Notes under the pieces: model-generated
Told to the model about the DNA's origin: nothing
What the model saw: only the letters and a program-made list of their open reading frames with translations
Databases searched by the model: none
Position numbers and translations under genes: made by a program
From: a virus
DNA: 33,498 nt
Strand: one strand, 5' to 3'
IMG/VR virus record: IMGVR_UViG_3300030117_007486
Location: 1 to 33,498 of that record
Shown: positions 1,082 to 33,093 of the stretch, one piece after another
How positions within the stretch are numbered: position 1 is the first letter of the stretch
How the letters are laid out: every line of letters starts with the position of its first letter

Positions 1082-4000
1082 TCAGCCATTCGTGATCGTG
1101 CCGTCAATGAGATTTCTAGGAACCATTGTTTCAACTGATCTTGTCGCCTTGATAATCTTTGGTGGACTATCAGACATACCCTTCACACAGAGAATATATC
1201 TCTTATCAAGTGTTTGGGCATTGTCGTAAGCCTCAATACGAATCGCTTGATTTGGGAAGTTAGCAGCACCACTCTCGTTGTAATGGTATACACTTCTTAA
1301 ATCCGCTTCAAAGGAGTTCGGATTAGTGTCGGATGTTGATCCAAACCGAGCAACTTTAAACAAAAGGCACTGGTCATTACTTGCCACTGCACTACCACTC
1401 CCAACGATGATGTCATAAGTAAACTTAACCACATTACCAGCGTTTGCAGCACGAACAACCAGAGCATTGTTTGATGTTGCTCCTGCACCTGTATATCCGT
1501 CACCACTGATTGATGGGAGTGTGCATCCAGAGAATTGATTGTCTTTAACACTGATAGCCACAAAGCCGTCACTGTAATTTCCAGAAACTCTATTCGGGAA
1601 TGGAACATTGAAGAAGTGATCTGCATCTGTAATGTTTGGAGCAGAAGCACCAATGTAAGAACTTGCGGCAGAAATACCAAACGTTCTGATCGTGCTACCT
1701 GTCAGTGATGGGAAAGACATTTCGTCAACAAGGTAGCCGCGATCTGTCTGATTACTTGTTGTCGATCCATAGATGAGATATTTTGCTCTCTTATTAAGAG
1801 CATCATATGTAAGTTCAATGTCAATACCAGATCCGGTAATCTGCAATTCTTCAACTGTTGATCCAGCGGTAATTGAGTTGCTTGCATCTCTAAACGTGCT
1901 TACAGACCCAGTATTGCCTGTTGTTCCGACAGCACCTGTAGCACCTGTCGCACCAGTAGCACCAGTGGGTCCGGTTCCACCACTTGCTCCGACTGATCCA
2001 GCCGCACCCTGTTGACCTCTTCGTGCAAAGGTGACAAAAGCATCTGGTGTTGCACTTGCGATTGAACCACTTGATGCAATTGTATCGAAGGTAAGTTTGT
2101 AATATGAACCTCTATCATCAGGAGCCTCAGAAATTTCACCAGCGAAGAATACAGGAGTTGAAGCATCGGGAGAAGTAACAAGAATCGTATCCCCATCACC
2201 AATCACTCCACTTGTAAACAGCGATGTAATGGTTGTACCATCTTTATCGGTTTCACTAATTCTTAAGAATTTTCCGCTTGATGTGGTGCTTGGGCTGATG
2301 ACAATCTCACCGCTTGCTGGTGTGATATTTGTATTTGCAGTGAATTTCTTAAGAGTATATCTCAAGCCTGCGTTACCAGTTGCACCTGTCGCACCCACCG
2401 AACCAGTCGCACCAGTCGCTCCTGTGTTTCCTGTTGCTCCAGTTCCGCCAGCACCGGCGATATGATAAACATATACACCAGTCGTTCCGGCAGTTGTTCC
2501 AAAGGTCAATCCTGTTGATCTATTTGTGTTGCCGGTAAATGTAAATGTTTTGGTTGTATTTGTAATTCCCGTAACTTCTAGTGAAGAGTGACCAACACCA
2601 CTAATATCTTGGAGATACAGTCTGTCTTTTTGGTCAGCCTTGATTGCACTAAAGTAAGTATTGAGATTTTCACCATTATCGCTTGTCACACTAAGAACAA
2701 TTGTGTGAACAGTACCCGCACTCGTATCAGTTAGTCTACCTGCACTGTTTCCGGGATTGCCACCAACGACGTACTTGAATCCAGCATCACCACCAGTTCC
2801 TCCAGTTGCACCTGTCGCACCAGTGGACCCCCTTACACCAGCACCACCAGCAGATCCGGTAGCACCAGCGGGACCAGTTGCTCCTGTTGCACCCGCAGCA
2901 CCAGTGGCTCCTAACGCACCAGTGGCTCCAGTCGTTCCATCACCTGCACGAACAAAGTTAAAGAAAACATTGGAATTGTTTGCAAATGTTCCGCCCTCTG
3001 TTGTCGCACCACCACTGAACGTAAACACGTTTGCCGCCGATGTGACTCCTGTGACTTTGAGAGAGAAAAGACCTGTAGGACTCTGTAAGAAAACTAAATC
3101 CCCACCATTTGTGGTGCTGATAGAATTAAGGAAATTATTAATATTCACACCATACGAGTTTGTATTGTGAATTTTAATTTGTGTTCCTGTGTAAGAGAGT
3201 TGACCTGATGCTGGTGTTCCTGTGGTCTTATATCCGTAAAGAATACCACCCATACCAGTCGCACCAGTGGCTCCCGTTGCACCTGTAGCACCAGTGGCTC
3301 CTGTTGCACCCGTAGCACCAATGGCTCCCGTTGCACCAGTGGCTCCAGTTGCACCTGTAGCACCTGTGCCTCCAACAGCCCCGGTTGCTCCGGTTGATCC
3401 CGAACCCGTTCCTGTAACTTGGAAAGTTAAATTAAGGGTTGAACCCGATGAATCATAAGAACTACTAATTGTAATTCCAGAACCAGATGTTGCGAAATTG
3501 ATTGTTTCAAAGGATGCACCACTCGAAGCAATTCTTGAACCGTTAACATCAATATTTTTGATTACATCTTGGGTTGTTCCATATGAACCAGATCCAATGA
3601 TCTTAATTCTCTCAAGAATATTTCCATTGGAATCAGTTTCAGTTCCACCAGAAGCAACGGCTGTGCCTTGCTCGCCAATTATTACGAATCCATCAACATC
3701 GGCAGCAGAACCACTATAGTCACCAACCTTAACTTTCACCTTCGAGTCAATCGTAATTCCAGCAGTTCCGGCTGTGAATGAGGACTGTAAGGTGATGTTT
3801 TGTCCTGCATTAAATCTAAGTGAGGATGCCAAAGTGCTTCCATTGATTTGAACAGGTCCGGTTGTGCCAGAAACGATGACTTCTGACAGACCATTTACCA
3901 AATCTTTGTATCCAGCAGATGCACCAAAAGAGGTAAGAACTTGACCATTTTTGCCAAGTGTTCCACCCATCAAAAGATTTCCGCTTGCAACATTCAAAGA

Positions 4001-5152
4001 GCCAAAAGTATCTCCACTCGTTGATGTTTGTTCACCGCCAACGACAACACTACCTTGCTGATTAATAAAGAATGGAGTCTTTGTTCCAAAACTTGCACCA
4101 GATCGATTTCCTTTGACAACAAAATTTGCGTCATTGCCAGTCGCAGCAAGGAAAAGATTTACTTTCTTAATTTCATTTGGTCTAATTACTACTTGATTTG
4201 ATTCGATGTCAAAACCAAATGTTTGACCACCAACCTCTTCAAAAATGAAGTCAGCAGAAATACCCTTTGATGATCTTGATTTGTAGTGAACAGGACCGAT
4301 GGGATTTGTGACCCCAAACAAACCCAATTCTCTATCAGTTTGATCAATAATAATATACGGTGCAGAGGCATTCGAGTCAATCGTCCCGGCAGTGTTACCA
4401 CCCGCAAACTGCAAAACTGACTTGTTGCCAGAGGTTCTTAAGTATCGAATAAATGCACCAAGTTCACGGATATTTGATCCGGCGTAATTACCATCTCTCA
4501 AGTAAATTGAGGCAGTGGCTCCCGTAGTTCCAACGAGTTGAATATTTCCTCGACCAAGATTACCAGATCCGGCTGTGGTCGTACCAACAACCAGTCCGCC
4601 CGATGCACCCACGAAAAATCTATCACCCGTTTCTCCGATGAATAATCTTTGTGGTGCAAACGTGGATCCGGTCGTATTGAAAACAACAATATCACCTTTT
4701 TGTCCGGTGGTGGGAAGATTAACAACCGCCGAAACAGTCACATCTCCGGTCGATCCGTTTACTGTTCTTACAACATTTCCATAAAGTTTTGATCCAGTGA
4801 AATCAACTGTACCACCGGGAAATTTAGTATGACTTCCAGAGAATGTGACACCACCAAGGAAGGTTGAAGTGCCGCTAGTTGTGCCATTACCCGTTCCTCT
4901 TACAAATTTTGGTAATCTAAAAGATAATTTTGCAATACCTGTGTTTGTGAGATAGTCGAGGGAAAGACCAGCACCAGTGGAAGTATTCGTTCCGACTGTA
5001 ACACCATAAATTTCAAGTGGATTGATTGCATCAATCAAATCATTTGTGCGATTGAACCAAATTTTGAAAGTATCAGATGTTAAAAGTTTATCAAGAGTCA
5101 ATCCTGCGATTGATCCTCCTGAAAAGCCGGGTGGTGGTGGATAGTTAGACAT
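1082..5152 (-). CDS. Large collagen-repeat virion fibre
   Basis: A 1356-residue protein with four collagen-like Gly-X-Y blocks, mostly Gly-Ala-Thr triplets, at roughly residues 582-633, 736-790, 898-927 and 1042-1081. The blocks are separated by globular modules of about 100 residues that resemble one another (patterns such as SLKVTGVTSAANVFTFSG and SLEVTGITNTTKTFTFTG). The N-terminal 580 residues are Gly/Ser/Thr-rich beta-type sequence after an unusual MSNYPPPPGFSGGSIAGL start. Such repeats form trimeric triple helices in phage fibres. The gene sits between the DUF4815 fibre and gp13, where T4 has gp12 and wac (whiskers), so it may be a short tail fibre, a collar fibre or an adhesin. AGAGGT lies before the ATG. 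The family is not identified more precisely. Confidence 0.75.
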   Translation of the reverse strand: MSNYPPPPGFSGGSIAGLTLDKLLTSDTFKIWFNRTNDLIDAINPLEIYGVTVGTNTSTGAGLSLDYLTNTGIAKLSFRLPKFVRGTGNGTTSGTSTFLGGVTFSGSHTKFPGGTVDFTGSKLYGNVVRTVNGSTGDVTVSAVVNLPTTGQKGDIVVFNTTGSTFAPQRLFIGETGDRFFVGASGGLVVGTTTAGSGNLGRGNIQLVGTTGATASIYLRDGNYAGSNIRELGAFIRYLRTSGNKSVLQFAGGNTAGTIDSNASAPYIIIDQTDRELGLFGVTNPIGPVHYKSRSSKGISADFIFEEVGGQTFGFDIESNQVVIRPNEIKKVNLFLAATGNDANFVVKGNRSGASFGTKTPFFINQQGSVVVGGEQTSTSGDTFGSLNVASGNLLMGGTLGKNGQVLTSFGASAGYKDLVNGLSEVIVSGTTGPVQINGSTLASSLRFNAGQNITLQSSFTAGTAGITIDSKVKVKVGDYSGSAADVDGFVIIGEQGTAVASGGTETDSNGNILERIKIIGSGSYGTTQDVIKNIDVNGSRIASSGASFETINFATSGSGITISSSYDSSGSTLNLTFQVTGTGSGSTGATGAVGGTGATGATGATGATGAIGATGATGATGATGATGATGATGMGGILYGYKTTGTPASGQLSYTGTQIKIHNTNSYGVNINNFLNSISTTNGGDLVFLQSPTGLFSLKVTGVTSAANVFTFSGGATTEGGTFANNSNVFFNFVRAGDGTTGATGALGATGAAGATGATGPAGATGSAGGAGVRGSTGATGATGGTGGDAGFKYVVGGNPGNSAGRLTDTSAGTVHTIVLSVTSDNGENLNTYFSAIKADQKDRLYLQDISGVGHSSLEVTGITNTTKTFTFTGNTNRSTGLTFGTTAGTTGVYVYHIAGAGGTGATGNTGATGATGSVGATGATGNAGLRYTLKKFTANTNITPASGEIVISPSTTSSGKFLRISETDKDGTTITSLFTSGVIGDGDTILVTSPDASTPVFFAGEISEAPDDRGSYYKLTFDTIASSGSIASATPDAFVTFARRGQQGAAGSVGASGGTGPTGATGATGATGAVGTTGNTGSVSTFRDASNSITAGSTVEELQITGSGIDIELTYDALNKRAKYLIYGSTTSNQTDRGYLVDEMSFPSLTGSTIRTFGISAASSYIGASAPNITDADHFFNVPFPNRVSGNYSDGFVAISVKDNQFSGCTLPSISGDGYTGAGATSNNALVVRAANAGNVVKFTYDIIVGSGSAVASNDQCLLFKVARFGSTSDTNPNSFEADLRSVYHYNESGAANFPNQAIRIEAYDNAQTLDKRYILCVKGMSDSPPKIIKATRSVETMVPRNLIDGTITNG
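1909..2025. repeat. Collagen-like DNA repeat tract 4
   Basis: Degenerate 9-base repeats encoding Gly-X-Y triplets (GATGATGATGAVG type) near the C-terminal part of the collagen-repeat fibre gene. The repeats are similar enough at DNA level to recombine with the other three tracts. Confidence 0.7.
2371..2458. repeat. Collagen-like DNA repeat tract 3
   Basis: The shortest of the four Gly-X-Y tracts, about ten triplets (GATGNTGATGATGSVG type). It separates two beta-rich modules of the collagen-repeat fibre. Confidence 0.7.
2783..2945. repeat. Collagen-like DNA repeat tract 2
   Basis: A Gly-X-Y tract of about 18 triplets, less uniform than tract 1 and including GPAG and GVRG triplets. It lies between two related modules of the collagen-repeat fibre. 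Confidence 0.7.
3251..3405. repeat. Collagen-like DNA repeat tract 1
   Basis: The most uniform of the four tracts: about 16 triplets, mostly Gly-Ala-Thr, in near-identical 9-base units of the type ACCAGTGGC/TCCTGTTGC on the plus strand. Such a tract is expected to vary in copy number by slippage or recombination. Reverse-strand open frames here (Ala-Pro-Val repeats) are shadows of it. Confidence 0.75.
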
Positions 5153-10822: not shown

Positions 10823-12790
10823 TTAGAAAGTAAAAATAATCTTGATAAATTCTGATTGTTCAGCAACCCTTTGAACCTTTTCAGCCATTCCTTGTATGTA
10901 TACCAATTCACCAGACATATTATTGATCTGAGGCTCACTAACACTTAAAACTTCACACACTGTATCAGTAGGGCTTGATGATGTAAGTGGTACAATAATG
11001 TTGTCACCCCGATTAAAACCATATGTGCTTCCACGGGCTTTTACATCAGTGAGAAAAATTTCAAATTCATCTTCAACTGGCAAGTCTGTCACAGATACAA
11101 TTTTTGCCTCAGAATCAGATGTGCGATTAAAAACTTTTTTGTCCAGAGCCACCAAGTTTGCTGCGTCACTGACTCCCTTAGCAACAACACCAACAGAGCC
11201 TCTAAAGGCACTTTTAGCGATGTTAAGTCTTGTGTCGGCAAATCTAGTTTCAAAAACTTTAAGTTTTTTGCTCAGTTGTGTAAATGTTCCATCTCGTTTA
11301 TCCGCTGAAAGAACCGTCAAAATTTCATCTTTAATAAATGGTTTTGCCATATTACGAACATCAATTTCGCCAGCGACCTCTGAGCCTACATCAAGACTAA
11401 GGGGACCGTTTAATTCACCTACCACTCCAGACGAATTTCCAACCACAATATATGATTTGCTTGAGTCATCTAAATCAAATCCAACGAGACTTCCTGTTTC
11501 TGAAACTTCTCTCACCAAAACTGTGGTTGTTCTAAAGTCGTCAAAGTTTAGAAGTTCACCGGCATTTGGTAGACCTTCAGCAACTTTAGGATTTTTAAGA
11601 ATGCCAATATTAATAAAATCGTTACCAATTCCCGACGCTTCATCGCTTGATAAATCTAAACTACCTTCAAATCTAACACCAATTGCGGATCTTTTCGCAG
11701 CAAGTTCAGAAACCGCATCCTTTCCAATCGGATCGTAAATGAGTGCATTTAAAGTATAATCAAAAACTTGATTCGTAACACTGAAACTTGGAGTGGCAAA
11801 AGAATAGTTTTGACCAGCAGATGTCATAATAATAGTATCAATCGTATTGTCACCCTTAAGTGTCGCAAATCCCTCCGCTCCATTACCATCCCCGCTAAAA
11901 TTGACAATCGGACCAATTTCATACAAGTCTGTTGGTTGGGGTGCTTGATTTGATGGGAAACTATTACCGACCTTTATCTCTCTGCCATTCACTTGTTTAA
12001 TTTTTCTAACCAACCCACTTGCAACACCACTCAAAATTCTCAACCCATATTCTTGTGTTCCGGAGGGTAGGTTTTGTGCTAACGTAAATGTCATTCTATC
12101 TGGACTTGCTGTTTGAATTTTATTGGAATTATTTCTGGGTTGTCCAAAATCAAAAACCAAATTTCCTGTTTTTCTAATTACACTTACACCAGAAATTGAT
12201 CCAATATTGTTGTCGAGGTTTGCTTCGTATTGAACTTCGTATTGATTTTGATCGGAGTTTTCATATGCGTTTGCAATTCTTTGATAAAACGGAAATTGCT
12301 TGACAGGAATATACTCTTTGTCAACAAAGTCCTCCAACCCGCTCGGGATTGTATACAAGAATTTCCACTCAAACCCATCTGTGAGTTGAATTGGGTCGGT
12401 GCTGGTTCCATTGGGTCGAATATTTGATCCGTTTTCATTGTCATTGTTATCAAGACAAATGTAAACGTTTCTTGAATTATCATCGTAAACGTAAAATGGT
12501 TTTGTAAGTGTGCTGGTATCCACATCAGAGGAAATTTTGTCCATTGAAATTCCCTCGGTCCAATCATAACGAGGGATTAAAATAGCAGAAGAATCGCTTT
12601 CAATTCTTTTAGCGACAATCAAGTTTTGTCTGAACGACGTTTCTGACTCGTCTGTTCTTTGGTCTGTTGTGCTTCCGGTGATACCAGAGAGACACATAAA
12701 AAATTTGTCCTCTGATAAAGAACCAAATTGACTCACAAAATTTTTTGCAAGTTGACCCTTGAATTGATAATCGTATGTTACTCCAGCCAT
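10823..12790 (-). CDS. 8: Baseplate wedge protein gp8
   Basis: A 655-residue protein whose N-terminal third matches T4 gp8 in pattern: a short leader, then AILIPRYDW (T4 has IPRRDW), NVYICLDNNDNENGS, and DGFEWKFLYTIPSGL followed by KEYIPVKQFP (T4 has DGYVWEYLFEIP and NEYIVVPWP). T4 gp8 is about 334 residues, so this version has roughly 320 extra C-terminal residues, presumably additional beta domains. gp8 is a wedge component that helps link the wedge to peripheral fibres. Its place between the gp7-position gene and the fibre genes matches T4. TGGAG precedes the ATG, and a TACATA motif overlaps the upstream stop codon. Confidence 0.75.
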   Translation of the reverse strand: MAGVTYDYQFKGQLAKNFVSQFGSLSEDKFFMCLSGITGSTTDQRTDESETSFRQNLIVAKRIESDSSAILIPRYDWTEGISMDKISSDVDTSTLTKPFYVYDDNSRNVYICLDNNDNENGSNIRPNGTSTDPIQLTDGFEWKFLYTIPSGLEDFVDKEYIPVKQFPFYQRIANAYENSDQNQYEVQYEANLDNNIGSISGVSVIRKTGNLVFDFGQPRNNSNKIQTASPDRMTFTLAQNLPSGTQEYGLRILSGVASGLVRKIKQVNGREIKVGNSFPSNQAPQPTDLYEIGPIVNFSGDGNGAEGFATLKGDNTIDTIIMTSAGQNYSFATPSFSVTNQVFDYTLNALIYDPIGKDAVSELAAKRSAIGVRFEGSLDLSSDEASGIGNDFINIGILKNPKVAEGLPNAGELLNFDDFRTTTVLVREVSETGSLVGFDLDDSSKSYIVVGNSSGVVGELNGPLSLDVGSEVAGEIDVRNMAKPFIKDEILTVLSADKRDGTFTQLSKKLKVFETRFADTRLNIAKSAFRGSVGVVAKGVSDAANLVALDKKVFNRTSDSEAKIVSVTDLPVEDEFEIFLTDVKARGSTYGFNRGDNIIVPLTSSSPTDTVCEVLSVSEPQINNMSGELVYIQGMAEKVQRVAEQSEFIKIIFTF

Positions 12791-17371: not shown

Positions 17372-19402
17372 TTATGTAATGTTGAGCAAACCTTTTAGGT
17401 CAGGTTTTGCTATTTGGGATAATAATTTTTGACTGAAGCAGGGGTCTTCCAACATAGACAAAACGGAGAAGCCAAGACTTGATTTCGAGAGATAATCCAA
17501 TGCTGCAAAGTAAGTGGCATTGTCGGAGTCAATCAGATTTCGCACACTTGACACCAGATCCAGTGTGGAATTACCCAAACTTATAATCTGCTCTAATTGA
17601 CTTACAGAAGCATCCGATAAATCTAGCCTATCGTCCGTAAGTGGAAATTCAGATAAAAATGCTCTGATGTTACCATTAAGCAAAGAATCAATAGAGTCGT
17701 AAAGGGCTTGTCCCGGTCCTAAAATACTACCAAAAAACGGTGAATAGTGATCGACAACCGCTTGACCAATGTTGCCACTGTCAATTGCATTTTTTACATT
17801 ATTATAACTTTGTGCAAGAGACTGTAATCCCACAAGACCGGGTAAGTCACCAATGCCCCCTCCCGGTTCAAAACCATCTTTGTAATTACTAGCACCACTC
17901 AATCTGTAGGCGTGATCTTGAAACTCATTTGAGATTGTTGTGAGTTGGCTTACTCTTTCATTCAAAAATTGTGTCGCTGTGTAAACTCTAACAACACCTT
18001 GACCATCAATATAAGTAGACAGTGGATTACCTGATGTATCACTGAGTTCAATATCCACGGCATTCGCCAAACTTTCTAAAATTTTTCCACCACCACTAAG
18101 AGCAGAATTTACGACATCTTCCACGGGACTCCTAAAAGCCTCTCCGGTAATGACATCTTGAATTGCCTGTAATTGTTCACTTGATAATGGGAGAGGTGGC
18201 AGATCACATCCAGATGTGTTGAACAAATCTAAGTTGAATAATTGCCCTTGTGCGATGTAGGCATCGGTCTGGTTGATTTGTGTTGTTTCTTCAACTGTCG
18301 TGGGAAAGGATAGTATTTCTGAAATTGGAAAAAATACAGAAGTCTGCGACCTTGCTGCTCTCAAATACAGTCGATCAATCTTATTTGAAAAACTTGGAGA
18401 ATCGTTTAATTCATTGATGTCATCTATAAGTTGATTGAAGAATGAATTTGTAATATAATTTTCTCCACTAGGGGGAATATCCAGATCATTGAATGTTACA
18501 GTGTGATTGTATGAAAAATCAATTTTTTCAGCGATGGGTCCAACATTTGTTGATCCACCTGTTGGAACATCAGCACTATAACTTCGATTTAAAAAAGTGA
18601 TTCCCGATTCAAGTTGTGCCTTTACAATTTCATTTTGTGGGGGAGGCGATTCAGGTGGTTCTCTTGGTGGAATGTCAGAACCTAGAGGAGACACCAAAGC
18701 AATTGTGCCACCAATAAGATTATCAAGCACACGTTTTGCAATATCAGGATATCGATTTTCGGGATCAACAAAAAGAGGATCGAACTCATTACCATATGGT
18801 CCGAGGCGTTCAGCATATGTAAAGTAATTTCTCAGACCCGTATCATAAAACGCATCATAATTATCAACACGAGTTGGGTTATAAATTGGCAAAACAGTTA
18901 AATTAGCAGCAGGAAAAATAATTCTTAATGCACTCAAACGTTTTGTTAGTCCATCCAAGAAATTAGGAGTTACACTAGAAATCTCATAGGTGCTTATTGG
19001 CGTAGAATCTCTATATGATCCAAAAAATGATAGAAACAAATGATCAAAAGAAATAGATGTTTCATTTAAAAATACTAAATTTGGATCAACAAGGTTGTCA
19101 ATTTTGATTGTAAAATCGATTGACACATCGCGGATATCTCTAAGTGTGTCTAAATCGACTCCTGTGGTATTGATTATATTATTGATACCGTTCTGTGCTA
19201 ATGTTTCTGTATCACTGTTTCCAAACGCAATAATATCGGAAATGCTTTCACTGGGATCTTCCTCAAGCAAAGATATGTCAAGATAGAGTGAGTCTTTGTT
19301 TAATTCACCACCCGCATCAGTAATTTTAGGACATACAATTGACCCTTTTTCATCTGGGTCAATTAAGCCGTTTGTAAGAACAGTAAATAAATTTGTTGGC
19401 AT
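17372..19402 (-). CDS. Virion protein of unknown family between hub and wedge genes
   Basis: A 676-residue protein I do not recognise. It is acidic and rich in Ser, Asp and Ile, with no signal peptide or clear membrane segment. It contains a proline-rich linker (SDIPPREPPESPPP) near residue 250 and a helical C-terminal part (LDLSDASVSQLEQIISLGNS onward), ending CFSQKLLSQIAKPDLKGLLN. Its place between the 203-residue gene and gp25, in an operon made only of baseplate genes, suggests a baseplate or hub-associated structural protein. TGGAG lies upstream of the ATG. T4 has no obvious counterpart here. Confidence 0.5.
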   Translation of the reverse strand: MPTNLFTVLTNGLIDPDEKGSIVCPKITDAGGELNKDSLYLDISLLEEDPSESISDIIAFGNSDTETLAQNGINNIINTTGVDLDTLRDIRDVSIDFTIKIDNLVDPNLVFLNETSISFDHLFLSFFGSYRDSTPISTYEISSVTPNFLDGLTKRLSALRIIFPAANLTVLPIYNPTRVDNYDAFYDTGLRNYFTYAERLGPYGNEFDPLFVDPENRYPDIAKRVLDNLIGGTIALVSPLGSDIPPREPPESPPPQNEIVKAQLESGITFLNRSYSADVPTGGSTNVGPIAEKIDFSYNHTVTFNDLDIPPSGENYITNSFFNQLIDDINELNDSPSFSNKIDRLYLRAARSQTSVFFPISEILSFPTTVEETTQINQTDAYIAQGQLFNLDLFNTSGCDLPPLPLSSEQLQAIQDVITGEAFRSPVEDVVNSALSGGGKILESLANAVDIELSDTSGNPLSTYIDGQGVVRVYTATQFLNERVSQLTTISNEFQDHAYRLSGASNYKDGFEPGGGIGDLPGLVGLQSLAQSYNNVKNAIDSGNIGQAVVDHYSPFFGSILGPGQALYDSIDSLLNGNIRAFLSEFPLTDDRLDLSDASVSQLEQIISLGNSTLDLVSSVRNLIDSDNATYFAALDYLSKSSLGFSVLSMLEDPCFSQKLLSQIAKPDLKGLLNIT
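17373..17378 (-). promoter_or_regulatory. Candidate late promoter (TACATA/ATAAATA type) for gp25
   Basis: Minus-strand ATTACATAAATAAA, only 9 bases before the gp25 ATG. It contains both the TACATA motif and a perfect ATAAATA, the core of T4-type late promoters, and overlaps the upstream stop codon. The very short distance to the ATG argues for caution. Confidence 0.35.
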
Positions 19403-26322: not shown

Positions 26323-27015
26323 ATGAGCATTCCAATTATTGTGACACCAAAATATGAAACAAAAATCCCAAGTGGTAAGGTTGTTTCTTTTCGACCTTTT
26401 CTTGTGAAAGAAGAAAAAGTTATGTTGATGATGAAAGAGTCTGATTCACCAAGAGAAATTATTAGTTGTATTGAAAAAGTTGTTCAGTCTTGCGTGGAGG
26501 ATGACACAAAGGTTCAGGACTTGTCATACTTTGACCTTGAGCATTTGTTCATTCATATGAGAGCAAGGTCAGTGGGCGAAAGCATTGATATTAATTACAC
26601 CTGCGAAAAATGTGAAAAATCATTTCCGCTCGAAGTTCAAATTCAAAACCTGTCATTGAGTAAAGAGTATCCAGAGGAAACAATCGTTATGCTTCAAGAA
26701 AACGTGGGTGTTGAAGTGAAACCTCTAAATGCAGATTCAATCGGAGCCTACACGGGCGAGGAATCTGATGTTTTAACTTTGTCTGAGAGTGTGATTAAAA
26801 CAGTTTTCAATGATCAAAATGTTTATAATTTTAACGACTTCACTAAGCAAGAGAGAGTTGAATTCATTGAATCCTTGAGTATCAAACAGATTCAAAAGAT
26901 TGTCGAAAAAATGGAAGAGTTTCCGAGGTGTGTGATTAAACAATCTTGTAAATGCACACATTGTGATGAAAATCTGGACATTGAAGTGGAGGGCTTACAG
27001 AATTTTTTTACTTGA
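26323..27015 (+). CDS. 26: Tail/hub assembly chaperone gp26
   Basis: A 230-residue protein of the T4 gp26 baseplate family (PF12322 type): it opens IIVTPKYETKIPSGKVVSFR, then SYFDLEHLFIHMRARSVGES. Two cysteine pairs, Cys94-x-x-Cys97 (TCEKCEKSF) and Cys211-x-x-Cys214 (KCTHCDENL), with a further Cys209, suggest a zinc ribbon. In T4 gp26 acts in hub assembly; by order it is the counterpart of lambda G and P2 E, the chaperones made just before the tape measure. The ATG has AAAGGA upstream. The last codons run over a seven-T tract before the stop, and the next frame continues (see the frameshift signal). Confidence 0.85.
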   Translation: MSIPIIVTPKYETKIPSGKVVSFRPFLVKEEKVMLMMKESDSPREIISCIEKVVQSCVEDDTKVQDLSYFDLEHLFIHMRARSVGESIDINYTCEKCEKSFPLEVQIQNLSLSKEYPEETIVMLQENVGVEVKPLNADSIGAYTGEESDVLTLSESVIKTVFNDQNVYNFNDFTKQERVEFIESLSIKQIQKIVEKMEEFPRCVIKQSCKCTHCDENLDIEVEGLQNFFT

Positions 27016-28867: not shown

Positions 28868-28892
28868 GATTCCATCTCTGTCAAATGGAATC
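28868..28892 (-). other. Second inverted repeat over the gp32 stop codon
   Basis: GATTCCAT (28868-28875) and ATGGAATC (28885-28892) are perfectly complementary, with a 9-base loop. The repeat lies 7 bases from the terminator stem and includes two bases of the gp32 stop codon. Two tandem hairpins at the message end could protect it from 3' exonucleases. There is no U-run of its own. Confidence 0.5.
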
Positions 28893-29793
28893 AGTCCTCG
28901 GCTGCGAGCCGTTGGAAGTAGTCAAGTGCAGACTCTTCCGAATCAGGCTGGACTTCCTCACGATCCACCTGACCACCACCAGAAACCGTATCCTCAGTTT
29001 GGGAAACTGGTGCTTCATTGACAGACACGCTTTCGGCTGTCGTAGTCGGCTGCGAGCCGCCGAGAACACTCTCAAGACGAGTCTTCAACTCATCATAAGA
29101 TTTGTAGTTTGCCGGATCGACAAACTCGCTGAGAGCATACTGTTGCTCCCAGATTGCCTTCAACTTCTCTTCATCACCATCAAAGAGAGCGGAAGGGGAA
29201 TCAAACTCCGACTTGTCGTAGTTGGGATAACCAGCGACCTTGCGTTGACGCAAGCGGAAGTTTGCTCCTTGCCAGAAGTCGAATGGAACGATTGGTTCTT
29301 CATCGGCAAACTCTGGCTTCATAGCATCCATAATCTTCTGATGAATCTTCATCCCATAACGATACAGGAAAACCTTACCGTTGTTTTCGGGATTGCCAGA
29401 ATCATTGATGACAAGGATGTTGGACACAAAGTTCTTCTTTCTCTTATACTTCTGAGAAACAAGATCCTTGTTGGATTGCAAACCACTGTTCCAAAGTTTA
29501 CTGTTCATTTCCGAAACCGGATCTTTCTCACCAAAAGTGGTGCGAGAGTTTTCAATGAACCAGCCACCCGGACCTTGGAATGCGTGATTGAAATACAGAA
29601 CCCAAGCATCCTCTTCACCCGATGCTTCGGGCAAGAAACGAATCACTGCACTTGCGGTTCCTGCGTCATCAACGGTCGGTCGCCAAAAGCGATCATCCTT
29701 GTATGACTTCTTTTCTCCTTCATCCATTGACGTAAGTTTCTGGATGAGAGCATCTTTGTTTTCACTGCGACGTTTTAATTCTTCAAATGACAT
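28891..29793 (-). CDS. 32: Single-stranded DNA-binding protein gp32
   Basis: A 300-residue protein (T4 gp32 is 301). The start at 29793 is chosen because AGGAG lies 9 bases upstream and the protein then begins MSFEELKRRSENKDALIQKL, a basic N-terminal cooperativity domain. The core matches T4: SAVIRFLPEAS, NHAFQGPGGWFIEN, KNFVSNILVINDSGNPENNG, KVFLYRYGMKIHQKI, FWQGANFRLRQRKVAGYPNY. The C-terminus is acidic (VDREEVQPDSEESALDYFQ), the tail that recruits replication partners. The three zinc-binding cysteines of T4 gp32 are absent: T4 IENC...CPVC is here IENS...DPVS, although the histidine in NHAF remains. It lies downstream of gp33 and ends at a strong terminator. Confidence 0.93.
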   Translation of the reverse strand: MSFEELKRRSENKDALIQKLTSMDEGEKKSYKDDRFWRPTVDDAGTASAVIRFLPEASGEEDAWVLYFNHAFQGPGGWFIENSRTTFGEKDPVSEMNSKLWNSGLQSNKDLVSQKYKRKKNFVSNILVINDSGNPENNGKVFLYRYGMKIHQKIMDAMKPEFADEEPIVPFDFWQGANFRLRQRKVAGYPNYDKSEFDSPSALFDGDEEKLKAIWEQQYALSEFVDPANYKSYDELKTRLESVLGGSQPTTTAESVSVNEAPVSQTEDTVSGGGQVDREEVQPDSEESALDYFQRLAAED

Positions 29794-29840
29794 AACTGTT
29801 TTCTCCTGTTTTAGTTGTTGTTGTCTGTTGTCGGACAGTT
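29794..29840 (-). promoter_or_regulatory. A/C-rich gp32 leader, possible autogenous operator
   Basis: Between the predicted transcription start and the gp32 ATG the message reads through repeated ACAAC units (GACAACAGACAACAACAAC) and then ACAGGAG. It is nearly free of strong secondary structure apart from a weak CTGT/ACAG pairing at its 5' end. T4 gp32 represses its own translation by binding cooperatively to an unstructured leader that includes the ribosome binding site, nucleated at a pseudoknot. The composition here suits the first part of that mechanism; no clear pseudoknot was found. Confidence 0.4.
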
Positions 29841-29846
29841 GTAGTA

Positions 29847-29874
29847 ATTGTAATCGGGTCTGAACCCTTGTCAA
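29847..29874 (-). promoter_or_regulatory. sigma70-like promoter for gp32
   Basis: On the minus strand a perfect TTGACA (29874-29869) and TACAAT (29852-29847, five of six bases of the -10 consensus) are separated by 16 bases. Transcription would start near 29840, about 47 bases before the gp32 ATG. The -35 box overlaps the end of gp33, so gp32 can be made independently of gp33 with host polymerase, as expected for an early/middle replication gene. Confidence 0.65.
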
Positions 29875-30098
29875 GACCCATCTGAAAATAATTTTGGGGT
29901 GCGTGGAAGTAGATTTATATTTTCGGCTTCCACACGAATTTTTTCAATAATTGGCTTTGATAGATATTTTGCCGCGAGTTCTGGTTCAATGTCCATTTCT
30001 TCGCAAAGTAGATTAATTGTATCCATATACCCATCACCAGTTTTTAGAACCCTTTCTTCAACTTTTCGTGAGAAAGTTTTTTCTAAATCTTCAAACAT
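29871..30098 (-). CDS. 33: Late-transcription coactivator gp33
   Basis: A 75-residue acidic protein. I choose the ATG at 30098 (MFEDLEKTFSRKVEERV) because GAGGTG lies 5 bases upstream; a GTG two codons earlier overlaps that ribosome binding site. The C-terminal half reads CEEMDIEPELAAKYLSKPII, then EKIRVEAENINLLPR, which parallels T4 gp33 (IIEKIQSEAIDENLLRP). gp33 bridges RNA polymerase and the sliding clamp gp45 and, with the sigma-like gp55, activates late promoters. T4 gp33 is 112 residues, so this is a short form. It lies upstream of gp32 with a TACATA palindrome in front of it. Confidence 0.82.
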   Translation of the reverse strand: MFEDLEKTFSRKVEERVLKTGDGYMDTINLLCEEMDIEPELAAKYLSKPIIEKIRVEAENINLLPRTPKLFSDGS

Positions 30099-30110
30099 AT
30101 TCACCTCGCA

Positions 30111-30140: not shown

Positions 30141-30851
30141 ATGTCACAGTTTCAGCAAGACAATGTTCGATTAAATCCCGGTCTTTCCGGAGCAAGCGTA
30201 GCGACCGATTATGTGTCCGCAAAAGACTCACATTACCAAATTGTAAAACTTGACTTTGGTGATGAGAACTCATTTTCTCAAGTATCAAACCAAAATCCAC
30301 TCCCTGTAAATATCCAAGGAATCAACAGCACTTTCAATACTTTGCCGGTTGCCGGTAACACGAACGGTGGGGCTGTTCTGGTATCTGGAACATTTGGATT
30401 TACAGGATCTATTTCTGGGGATCAATTTGGAGTGACCCTTACCGCTATCACTGGTGGTGTCACCTTCGGAATTGTTAACGCACCCGGAACCACGCTGAGT
30501 GTCACTGATTCACAAATTGTCGTAAAGAGTGTCGTGCTTCCAACGTCGCTCACTATGGGTTCGAGGGTCATCAGCGGTTCATCCCCATCAATTCTGACTC
30601 TCTCAGGATTCTCTTGTGAAACAGGAATTAAAGTTAAAAACTTCGCGGGCTTGACGAACAGTGGTGCTATTTTAACAGTAAGTAATTCAGATTATTCCGC
30701 GACAGGTAAAACTGCAAATGCTTATATGCTGCTTCCCGGCGAGGAAATTTTTATCGAAGTAAGTGATATTGATAAACTTAGATTCTCCGCCATTCTTGAT
30801 CCATTCAACCCCACAAGGCAACTGGTCACACTTTCTTATCAGGCTTCATAA
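30141..30851 (+). CDS. Putative virion protein of unknown function
   Basis: A 236-residue protein rich in Gly, Ser, Thr and Val, with predicted beta structure throughout. The N-terminal stretch DSHYQIVKLDFGDENSFSQV then SNQNPLPVNIQG resembles a short module (HxQxVKL...NPLPV) common at the start of phage structural and decoration proteins. The end (MLLPGEEIFIEVSDIDKLRF) looks like a beta-sandwich edge. I do not recognise the family beyond that. GGAG lies 9 bases before the ATG. It heads a coupled three-gene unit (TAATG, then TGATG overlaps), so the three products probably act together. Confidence 0.55.
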   Translation: MSQFQQDNVRLNPGLSGASVATDYVSAKDSHYQIVKLDFGDENSFSQVSNQNPLPVNIQGINSTFNTLPVAGNTNGGAVLVSGTFGFTGSISGDQFGVTLTAITGGVTFGIVNAPGTTLSVTDSQIVVKSVVLPTSLTMGSRVISGSSPSILTLSGFSCETGIKVKNFAGLTNSGAILTVSNSDYSATGKTANAYMLLPGEEIFIEVSDIDKLRFSAILDPFNPTRQLVTLSYQAS

Positions 30852-31909
30852 TGAGACAAAAGATTCGCAAGGCGGTTTCTGCCCTATCAAAAGGTCAATT
30901 ACTACGGCGAGATCAAGCAGTTGCTTTTGATGTAAACGAACCTCCATACTTTCCTGATCGATATGGTGCTTGCTGCACGACTGGCGGTGCGCAAGACGGA
31001 ACTTTTTGCCAATGCACAGACAACATTCTAGGTAGAGACTGCTGTATTCAAGGCGGCATTCACTACGCAGGATTTAGTTGTGGTCAGGTAAACTGTTGTG
31101 AGACAGGACCGGACTGCTTTGGTGCGTTTTGTAATGTGACACCAGACACACCTGCTGCTTGTATTGAAGGCACAAGAGCGAGTCCTCCAAAGGGCGATTG
31201 GGTTTTCCAAGGTTGTGGAACAACCTGTAGTGACACTCTTTGTCCAGATCCAGAAACCACAAATAGATGTTGTCTCAGATGCGGTGATGGTTATGAAAAT
31301 CCAGACGCACTGAATGGTGAGTGTATTGATGGGGTGGGATTGTCTAAATCATTTTGTGATAAAAAGGGTGGTCTTTTTACAGAAAGTGCGAGTTGTGGCG
31401 ATACCCCCGTTTGTAAGGATGAGTGTATTGTGACAACTACAGGCTCTTGTTGTTTCATAAATCCGGGTACTGGGGAACTAGAATGTTTCGATGGTGTTGA
31501 GGAATCTACTTGTGATGTATTAAATGGTGTTTTCAAAGAGGGTGTCGGCTGTGATTCAGATCCTTGCTCCGAGGTTTTCACACTTTGTTGTGACACACCA
31601 ACGACGGTGAGTTATGGTTCTTGTCCGGGATTCGATGGAACAATTTGTTTTATAAACTCTGACTGCACAAAAAGAGTGGTTGACATAGATGACTTTGGAA
31701 CAATTGATTGTTGTGCGCAAAATACTGGTGATGTTGGAGGGGAGACTTTTACCGACTGTAGTTGCAATTCGAGTGGATGCCAGAACGCAAAGAATCTTCC
31801 AGATTGCAATGCTCACTTATGTGATGATGGCATTGGTCAACCAAGCGAGGCTGATTGTTGCACTGAATCATTCGATGCAACTTTAAATTGTGGAGAGGAT
31901 TGTTCCTGA
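30851..31909 (+). CDS. Extremely cysteine-rich GACC-repeat protein
   Basis: A 352-residue protein with 45 cysteines by hand count (about 13%), many as Cys-Cys pairs. A basic N-terminus of about 35 residues (MRQKIRKAVSALSKGQLLRR) precedes repeats of the form GxCCxxxxG...C...C...GGxFxxGxxCxxxxC, for example GSCCFINPGTGELECFDG then STCDVLNGVFKEGVGCDSDP. Similar GACC-type repeats occur in secreted bacterial proteins, notably of planctomycetes. No signal peptide is seen. Such spacing suggests small disulfide- or metal-stabilised knots on an exposed structure. Its coupling to two virion-like genes suggests a surface or fibre component. Function is unknown. Confidence 0.6.
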   Translation: MRQKIRKAVSALSKGQLLRRDQAVAFDVNEPPYFPDRYGACCTTGGAQDGTFCQCTDNILGRDCCIQGGIHYAGFSCGQVNCCETGPDCFGAFCNVTPDTPAACIEGTRASPPKGDWVFQGCGTTCSDTLCPDPETTNRCCLRCGDGYENPDALNGECIDGVGLSKSFCDKKGGLFTESASCGDTPVCKDECIVTTTGSCCFINPGTGELECFDGVEESTCDVLNGVFKEGVGCDSDPCSEVFTLCCDTPTTVSYGSCPGFDGTICFINSDCTKRVVDIDDFGTIDCCAQNTGDVGGETFTDCSCNSSGCQNAKNLPDCNAHLCDDGIGQPSEADCCTESFDATLNCGEDCS

Positions 31910-33093
31910 TGAGTAAACTAAAATATTCCAGTGAAAATAATTTCCTGAACGCTCTTGGGTTTGACTTAAATAGCATCTCATTCAAAACCTTTAATTCAAT
32001 CGGAATTAGAAATACAAAATTCATTATGAACAACACCTTCAAATCTGTCACTACTCCAGAAATGACAAAAAAGTATGACACAAAAACAGTGAATGGTAAG
32101 ATAAACTTTGGTGAAACTAAATCAGGCTTTCCTTTGGATCTTAGTATTGAGTCGAGTGATCTTACTCAGAAAGAACTTAAAGACCCAAGCAGAATGTTAT
32201 CAATGTTGAAGAATGCAAATTTTACTGTTTTTTCTGCAATTCGAGAAAAAAACCAATACGGGGAAGTGATTCAAAGAATTATGGATCAATTTTTTAAGAT
32301 GGGTTCATCTGAAACACTCAAGACAAATCCAGACACATCTTTCTTAGATGGTCGTCTTTCTGCTGCCAGCGGAACAGAACTTTTTAGTCCATTTACGGGA
32401 TCAAATGAGTTGCAGCAAGCATTCTTTTACTTTCCTCTTAACGCTGGCGATGGGCAATTGATTAGTGGTGATCGTATCAACTCTGCATCAGTGAATTTAA
32501 AAATCTTAGCACACTACGGCGATAGAAAAAATAATTTGGATGTATTTCAAGGGGCATCTCCTTTGTTTGGTGATTTAAAAATTGAGCCTAGAGTCTTTGA
32601 AGTTGTGCGGGTCAAAAAAGATATTGGTTTCCCTCTTGTTCAGCGGGACATCGAAACACCAGAAGGTAAGTATGGAAACGGAACGGGGCAATTTTGGGAA
32701 ACTTATTATGGAACAGGATCACTCGACGTTGACACCAGCGTGCGAACAGAATTTACAATCAGTGATGTTTTGAAACCCGGAGAAATTCTTAGAATCGACA
32801 TTAGTAAGTTGGTACAAGACGCGGTTGACAACAGAAACTCAATTTTGAGATTTGTCATTCGACCCAAAATGGCGACGTATCGAAAAAATGGCTGCTCATC
32901 TGAATCCACTGGAAACAAAACCGTGGCAAATGGTGGTTTTGGTGCTGGCAATCATTACTTTGATTTTGAACGGGGTGGAGATGACGTTTTAACACAACCA
33001 TCACTCTCTTTAAGTATTACTCCATCGGCAACTTCGACTGGGAGCCGTAGGGCAACACTTTCAAGATTATATCGTGTTCAATTAACGTCTTAA
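31909..33093 (+). CDS. Putative virion/fibre protein with possible DNRLRE-like domain
   Basis: A 394-residue protein. I take the ATG at 31909, which overlaps the previous stop (TGATG) and gives MSKLKYSSENNFLNALGFDL; an upstream in-frame start lies inside the cysteine-rich gene. The C-terminal half (ASVNLKILAHYGDR, then LRIDISKLVQDAVDNRNSIL and RFVIRPKMATY) resembles the strands of DNRLRE-type beta-sandwich domains (ID-S/T-LVxxAV...), found in secreted and adhesive proteins. This is a pattern impression only. The N-terminal half is not recognised. It is the last gene of the three-gene rightward unit and overlaps the convergent exonuclease gene by 12 bases. Confidence 0.5.
   Translation: MSKLKYSSENNFLNALGFDLNSISFKTFNSIGIRNTKFIMNNTFKSVTTPEMTKKYDTKTVNGKINFGETKSGFPLDLSIESSDLTQKELKDPSRMLSMLKNANFTVFSAIREKNQYGEVIQRIMDQFFKMGSSETLKTNPDTSFLDGRLSAASGTELFSPFTGSNELQQAFFYFPLNAGDGQLISGDRINSASVNLKILAHYGDRKNNLDVFQGASPLFGDLKIEPRVFEVVRVKKDIGFPLVQRDIETPEGKYGNGTGQFWETYYGTGSLDVDTSVRTEFTISDVLKPGEILRIDISKLVQDAVDNRNSILRFVIRPKMATYRKNGCSSESTGNKTVANGGFGAGNHYFDFERGGDDVLTQPSLSLSITPSATSTGSRRATLSRLYRVQLTS

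Follow-up and report, generated by a model that had tools for sequence, protein, structure and literature searches.

The window, meaning the whole 33.5-kb virus record analysed here, belongs to a marine T4-type phage and carried recognisable genes for the baseplate, tail tube, neck and gp32. The ssDNA-binding protein gp32 (28891..29802, minus strand) was about 50% identical to the Melnitz, Mosig and cyanophage proteins. Next to it on the same strand lay a gene (29871..30104) with 51% identity to its equivalent in the viral contig L140, which we take to be gp33 from gene order rather than from a family match. Both served as landmarks of a conserved gene order. Three genes followed on the plus strand: p236 (30141..30851), a cysteine-rich gene (30851..31909) and p394 (31909..33093). 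The stop codon of p236 overlapped the ATG of the cysteine-rich gene (TAATG) and the stop codon of the latter overlapped the start of p394 (TGATG), so that the three genes look translationally coupled. Homologues of p236 were present in the viral contigs L003 (74%) and L140 (34%, with a longer middle). The similarity of p394 to the DNRLRE domain was sub-threshold (E 0.011, below the cut-off), and family searches placed neither p236 nor p394 in a recognised structural family. The T4 late promoter TATAAATA was not found in the window. The collagen-like fibre gene of the window (1082-5152) adjoined the neck gene, and a 676-aa protein without PHROG or Pfam match was encoded between gp25 and the gp5 region (17372-19402). 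A first-pass annotation had described a phage virion context. This applies to most of the window, which consists mainly of T4-type tail and baseplate genes, but not to the immediate neighbours of the cysteine-rich gene, which are gp33 and gp32, two unassigned genes and a nuclease.

The cysteine-rich gene starts with ATG and encodes 352 aa. A recount confirmed the 45 cysteines reported earlier (12.8%), including eight CC pairs. Other proteins of the window held 0-1.4% cysteine, the single exception being a gp26-like baseplate protein (26323-27015) with 8 cysteines (3.5%). Tail and fibre proteins synthesised in a reducing cytoplasm as a rule contain few cysteines, as did the remaining window proteins. 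Truncated homologues were detected in two viral contigs, L001 (98% over 97 aa) and L003 (82% over 67 aa), both with p236 upstream. Nei-Gojobori estimates were dN 0.009 and dS 0.116 against L001 and dN 0.127 with saturated dS against L003; the gene is under purifying selection. The first-pass annotation had left room for an ORF that is not translated, but the two homologues and the purifying selection speak for a real gene, and a spurious ORF was rejected based on conservation and dN/dS. The first 38 residues (30851..30964) comprised a basic, cysteine-free segment that was well conserved in L003 and in which no hydrophobic signal peptide was found.

An idealised GACC sequence led to 195 bacterial stretches, from which 79 loci, mostly of planctomycetes, were kept, and a 37-position profile was built from 301 bacterial units of these loci. 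Signal-type hydrophobic N-termini were present in 41 of 68 bacterial GACC proteins, taking the best of three starts, which bore out the earlier remark that comparable repeats occur in secreted bacterial proteins. The maximum 12-residue hydropathy was 0.49 in the window protein versus a bacterial median of 2.1, too low for a secretory signal. The cysteine-rich region scored 62.2 bits against the 301-unit profile without bias correction. Once HMMER's composition correction was applied, the whole-sequence score was negative, and comparison with shuffled sequences was therefore the proper test here. None of 15,000 shuffles reached 62.2 bits; the maxima of 5,000 each were 46.0 (all residues), 50.8 (cysteines fixed) and 47.8 (CC kept). 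Similarity to GACC repeats accordingly exceeded amino-acid composition and cysteine spacing (62.2 versus at most 50.8 bits with cysteines fixed). For the best single unit alone, the observed value was reached by 1 to 4 of 5,000 shuffles.

Only four units matched the profile, at aa 39-82, 118-131 (partial), 155-188 and 198-239, and they stood consecutively within aa 39-245. The ordered six-cysteine unit (CC..C..C..C..C with a G-x-CC start) was thereby found in tandem. Unit 1 (aa 39-82; 30965..31096) was recovered by the profile as well as by the structural model and held extra cysteine. The divergent, GACC-like unit 2 (aa 83-131; 31097..31243) matched with its 3' half alone. Unit 3 (aa 140-188; 31268..31414), again with extra cysteine, carried a CC at 140-141 ahead of the matching part. 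Unit 4 (aa 198-239; 31442..31567) showed the canonical order with exactly six cysteines, C200, 201, 212, 221, 234 and 239. No GACC profile match was obtained for the C-terminal part (aa 246-352; 31586..31906), which comprised 107 residues with 16 cysteines and had no confident fold. The repeats of the window protein were diverged and not recent copies of a bacterial gene. The repeated GxCC-type units noted in the first-pass annotation were hence real, and their identity as GACC modules is well supported.

Structure prediction, proposed earlier as a check, yielded a predicted compact fold for unit 4 when modelled with 97 phage and bacterial relatives (mean pLDDT 91.4). The full-length model (31 rows) contained four similar strand-rich units at 38-245, mostly with pLDDT 70-90, while long helices were absent and the C-terminal part showed no confident fold; because presumed relatives supplied its alignment, this model is not independent proof. 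In the PDB, the unit profile matched iRhom1 and iRhom2 with E 5e-8 to 8e-6, and a bacterial-only unit profile also matched iRhom (E 3.5e-4). A control profile with fixed cysteines and other residues shuffled gave no PDB match. VIA-align recovered the same iRhom segment with Z 4.0 and 3.9, aligning 43 residues at about 2.0 A, and no other match reached Z 2; as a fold match between a predicted model and iRhom, this is modest. Foldseek against the PDB returned no significant match for unit 4 or the full-length model. Eight disulfides hold the iRhom homology domain together in a structure called unprecedented by its authors (PMC11248996), in agreement with the prediction that all 16 of its cysteines pair (PMC10148629). 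By this analogy, the canonical cysteines of the window protein would be built to pair as disulfides (PMC11248996, PMC10148629).

The idealised unit retrieved 11 viral loci. A first DNA pattern yielded four loci, all spurious; another, encoding GACCxxDGxC(x7)C, yielded 77 viral stretches. The search for GACC units in other phages, also recommended in the first-pass annotation, resulted in 74 viral ORFs of at least 40 bits in 72 of the 77 pattern-found loci, with up to 241 Cys in 2,102 aa. Collagen-like runs were present in 32 of the 74 ORFs, and the collagen-GACC proteins matched tail-fibre PHROGs via their collagen part. None of 45 complete phage GACC N-termini contained a signal-type hydrophobic stretch. 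The GACC genes of L093, L094 and L100 adjoined the baseplate genes gp53/gp25/gp6, that of L169 was placed after gp5, and those of L097, L132 and L139 lay shortly before the neck gene. L140, which was retrieved by the GACC DNA pattern alone, showed the gene order of the window, with gp32, gp33, a p236 homologue and a GACC protein cut by the contig end; it also carried gp5, gp53, gp48 and gp26. Its p236 homologue of 319 aa (11641-12597) was lengthened mid-protein by repeated segments (SVGSIxSNVSVxLKSIDSST), suggesting an extendable fibre-like part.

In several virus records the number of GACC ORFs was four or five. L100 comes from a 50-kb record (G010) with five separate ORFs of about 530 to 2,600 aa, and G008 and G012 contained four each. 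In L093 (1704-8985) and L100 (2375-8935), the giant GACC gene was flanked by two ORFs matching different parts of the tail-protein family phrog_350, roughly 166-326 upstream and 348-435 downstream, an arrangement that would fit insertion into, or splitting of, a phrog_350 gene. The domain C-terminal to the GACC units of L108 (7158-8408) resembled the Lcl C-terminal domain at sub-threshold level (E 0.014) and is a possible receptor-binding head. Curli-type genes (CsgF, CsgG, curlin repeats) were located near gp32 in Methylophilales phage Melnitz-3 (L008:9979-14057). psbA was searched as a cyanophage test in eight relatives and was not present.

Searches of Pfam, PHROGs and NCBIfam found no family for the GACC repeats or the cysteine-rich protein, including known tail-fibre or other virion families. 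Pfam gave no rhomboid match, and neither metallothionein nor any other match up to E 0.1; together with the length of 352 aa, this led to rejection of a metallothionein. The window protein searched directly against the genome contigs had no match. The window protein, p394 and five GACC queries or parts found nothing in 50,697 phage records with tblastn, even at E<=10. As tblastn masks low-complexity sequence and not even chance matches appeared at E<=10, absence from isolate phages is weak evidence. No earlier description of cysteine-rich phage virion proteins or GACC repeats was found in the titles and abstracts searched.

Gene order in L140, the occurrence of GACC modules in tail-type loci and the match to the disulfide-bonded iRhom domain together suggest that the cysteine-rich protein is probably a rod or spacer of disulfide-stapled modules on the virion surface, not exported and oxidised after lysis. 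It would form a short chain of GACC modules of about 40 aa and six cysteines each, synthesised in the host cytoplasm together with p236 and p394 and without secretion signal. We infer that its destination is most likely the virion surface, where it may serve the tail or the tail fibres as a spacer or adhesion element that is rigid and resists proteases. Oxidising conditions, met at or after lysis, would bring about pairing of the cysteines, and the oxidised modules would stiffen and staple; the fused collagen-GACC proteins point to such a role as rod or spacer. Among the structures envisaged in the first-pass annotation, a rigid rod of knots has the best support, given the predicted compact unit (pLDDT 91) and the corresponding iRhom segment. 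Several observations count against a virion rod. The gene is situated among replication and unassigned genes outside the tail operon, and its neighbours p236 and p394 match no recognised structural family. Its tail-operon relatives are of far greater size and resemble it in the units only, and the last 107 residues with their 16 cysteines fall outside the GACC units.

The position outside the tail operon would also suit a non-virion protein that leaves the cell through lysis or along an unrecognised export route and works outside it, for example in a matrix or in adhesion, with its disulfides forming there. Its best-known relatives are secreted bacterial proteins, and p394 is weakly similar to the DNRLRE domain, which is known mainly from secreted proteins. 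However, a secretion signal is absent, and the relatives include fusions to collagen-like tail-fibre shafts and genes set within baseplate and neck clusters, which makes an extracellular factor unlikely. A cytoplasmic protein for metal binding or storage, acting in infection or carried in the virion, was considered on account of 45 cysteines in the product of a reducing compartment and of the CC pairs, which can bind soft metals. The metal-loaded structure considered in the first-pass annotation nevertheless lost ground, as the protein has just two His and matches no metallothionein or other family, and its cysteines are ordered as in a fold for which the solved relative carries disulfides (PMC10148629); a metal protein is very improbable. 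About as improbable is a protein that imitates a host surface protein, another of the earlier proposals, or serves as a decoy for it. GACC repeats are common in planctomycetes and in some other phyla, many with signal-type N-termini, but the modules are found at structural loci of diverse phage types and the window repeats are not recent bacterial copies. Since such repeats recur across more than 70 diverse viral loci, mimicry of one host is hardly to be expected.

Beyond the virion rod or spacer proposed for the window protein, uncultured marine phages may, as a tentative generalisation, construct tails and fibres quite generally from a so far unnamed disulfide module that also occurs in secreted bacterial proteins and in the ectodomain of iRhom. 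Such proteins, several per phage, would consist of tandem arrays with up to 241 Cys that stay reduced inside the cell and are fixed by oxidation once lysis has occurred, and the window protein would be a short and diverged representative at a second conserved locus. The recurrence of similar modules in the tail regions of many uncultured phages, in planctomycete secreted proteins and in a domain of a human membrane protein suggests that these phages assemble rigid surface parts from disulfide-stapled beads. The module is not unique to phages; it is a secreted-type disulfide repeat found here in phage tail-type loci. Arrays of 25 to 241 Cys in such loci would be an uncommon construction material for virus particles, and the testable question arises when and by which route they are oxidised.

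The secreted GACC proteins of planctomycetes (Phycisphaerae and others) share with the window protein the six-cysteine order, the G-x-CC start, the tandem arrangement and a G-x-[FYW] ahead of Cys5. They mostly possess a signal-type N-terminus and regular units, whereas the units of the window protein are diverged, contain extra cysteines and follow no signal. Collagen-like phage tail fibres (phrog_6320, phrog_30509 and others) are related through proteins such as those of L108, L110 and L175, which fuse shafts to GACC units, and the collagen-like fibre gene of the window occupies the position beside the neck gene where L097, L132 and L139 have GACC proteins. The cysteine-rich protein itself differs in having neither a collagen part nor a PHROG match. 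The giant proteins of the baseplate operons in L093, L094, L100 and L169 (1,100-2,100 aa, up to 241 Cys) likewise carry GACC units in T4-type phages, but they are larger and have another N-terminus and another genomic slot. To the iRhom homology domain (IRHD; PDB 8snl, 9q7y, 9xy4, 9o58), the likeness by profile and fold concerns one unit-sized segment. In iRhom this segment sits within a larger ectodomain flanked by membrane helices, while the window protein is a tandem array that, based on Pfam and the model, lacks the rhomboid-like membrane core of iRhom. The resemblance is limited to one module and implies no functional relation, but it points to candidate relatives of the iRhom homology domain outside animals and offers a solved template for the phage repeats.
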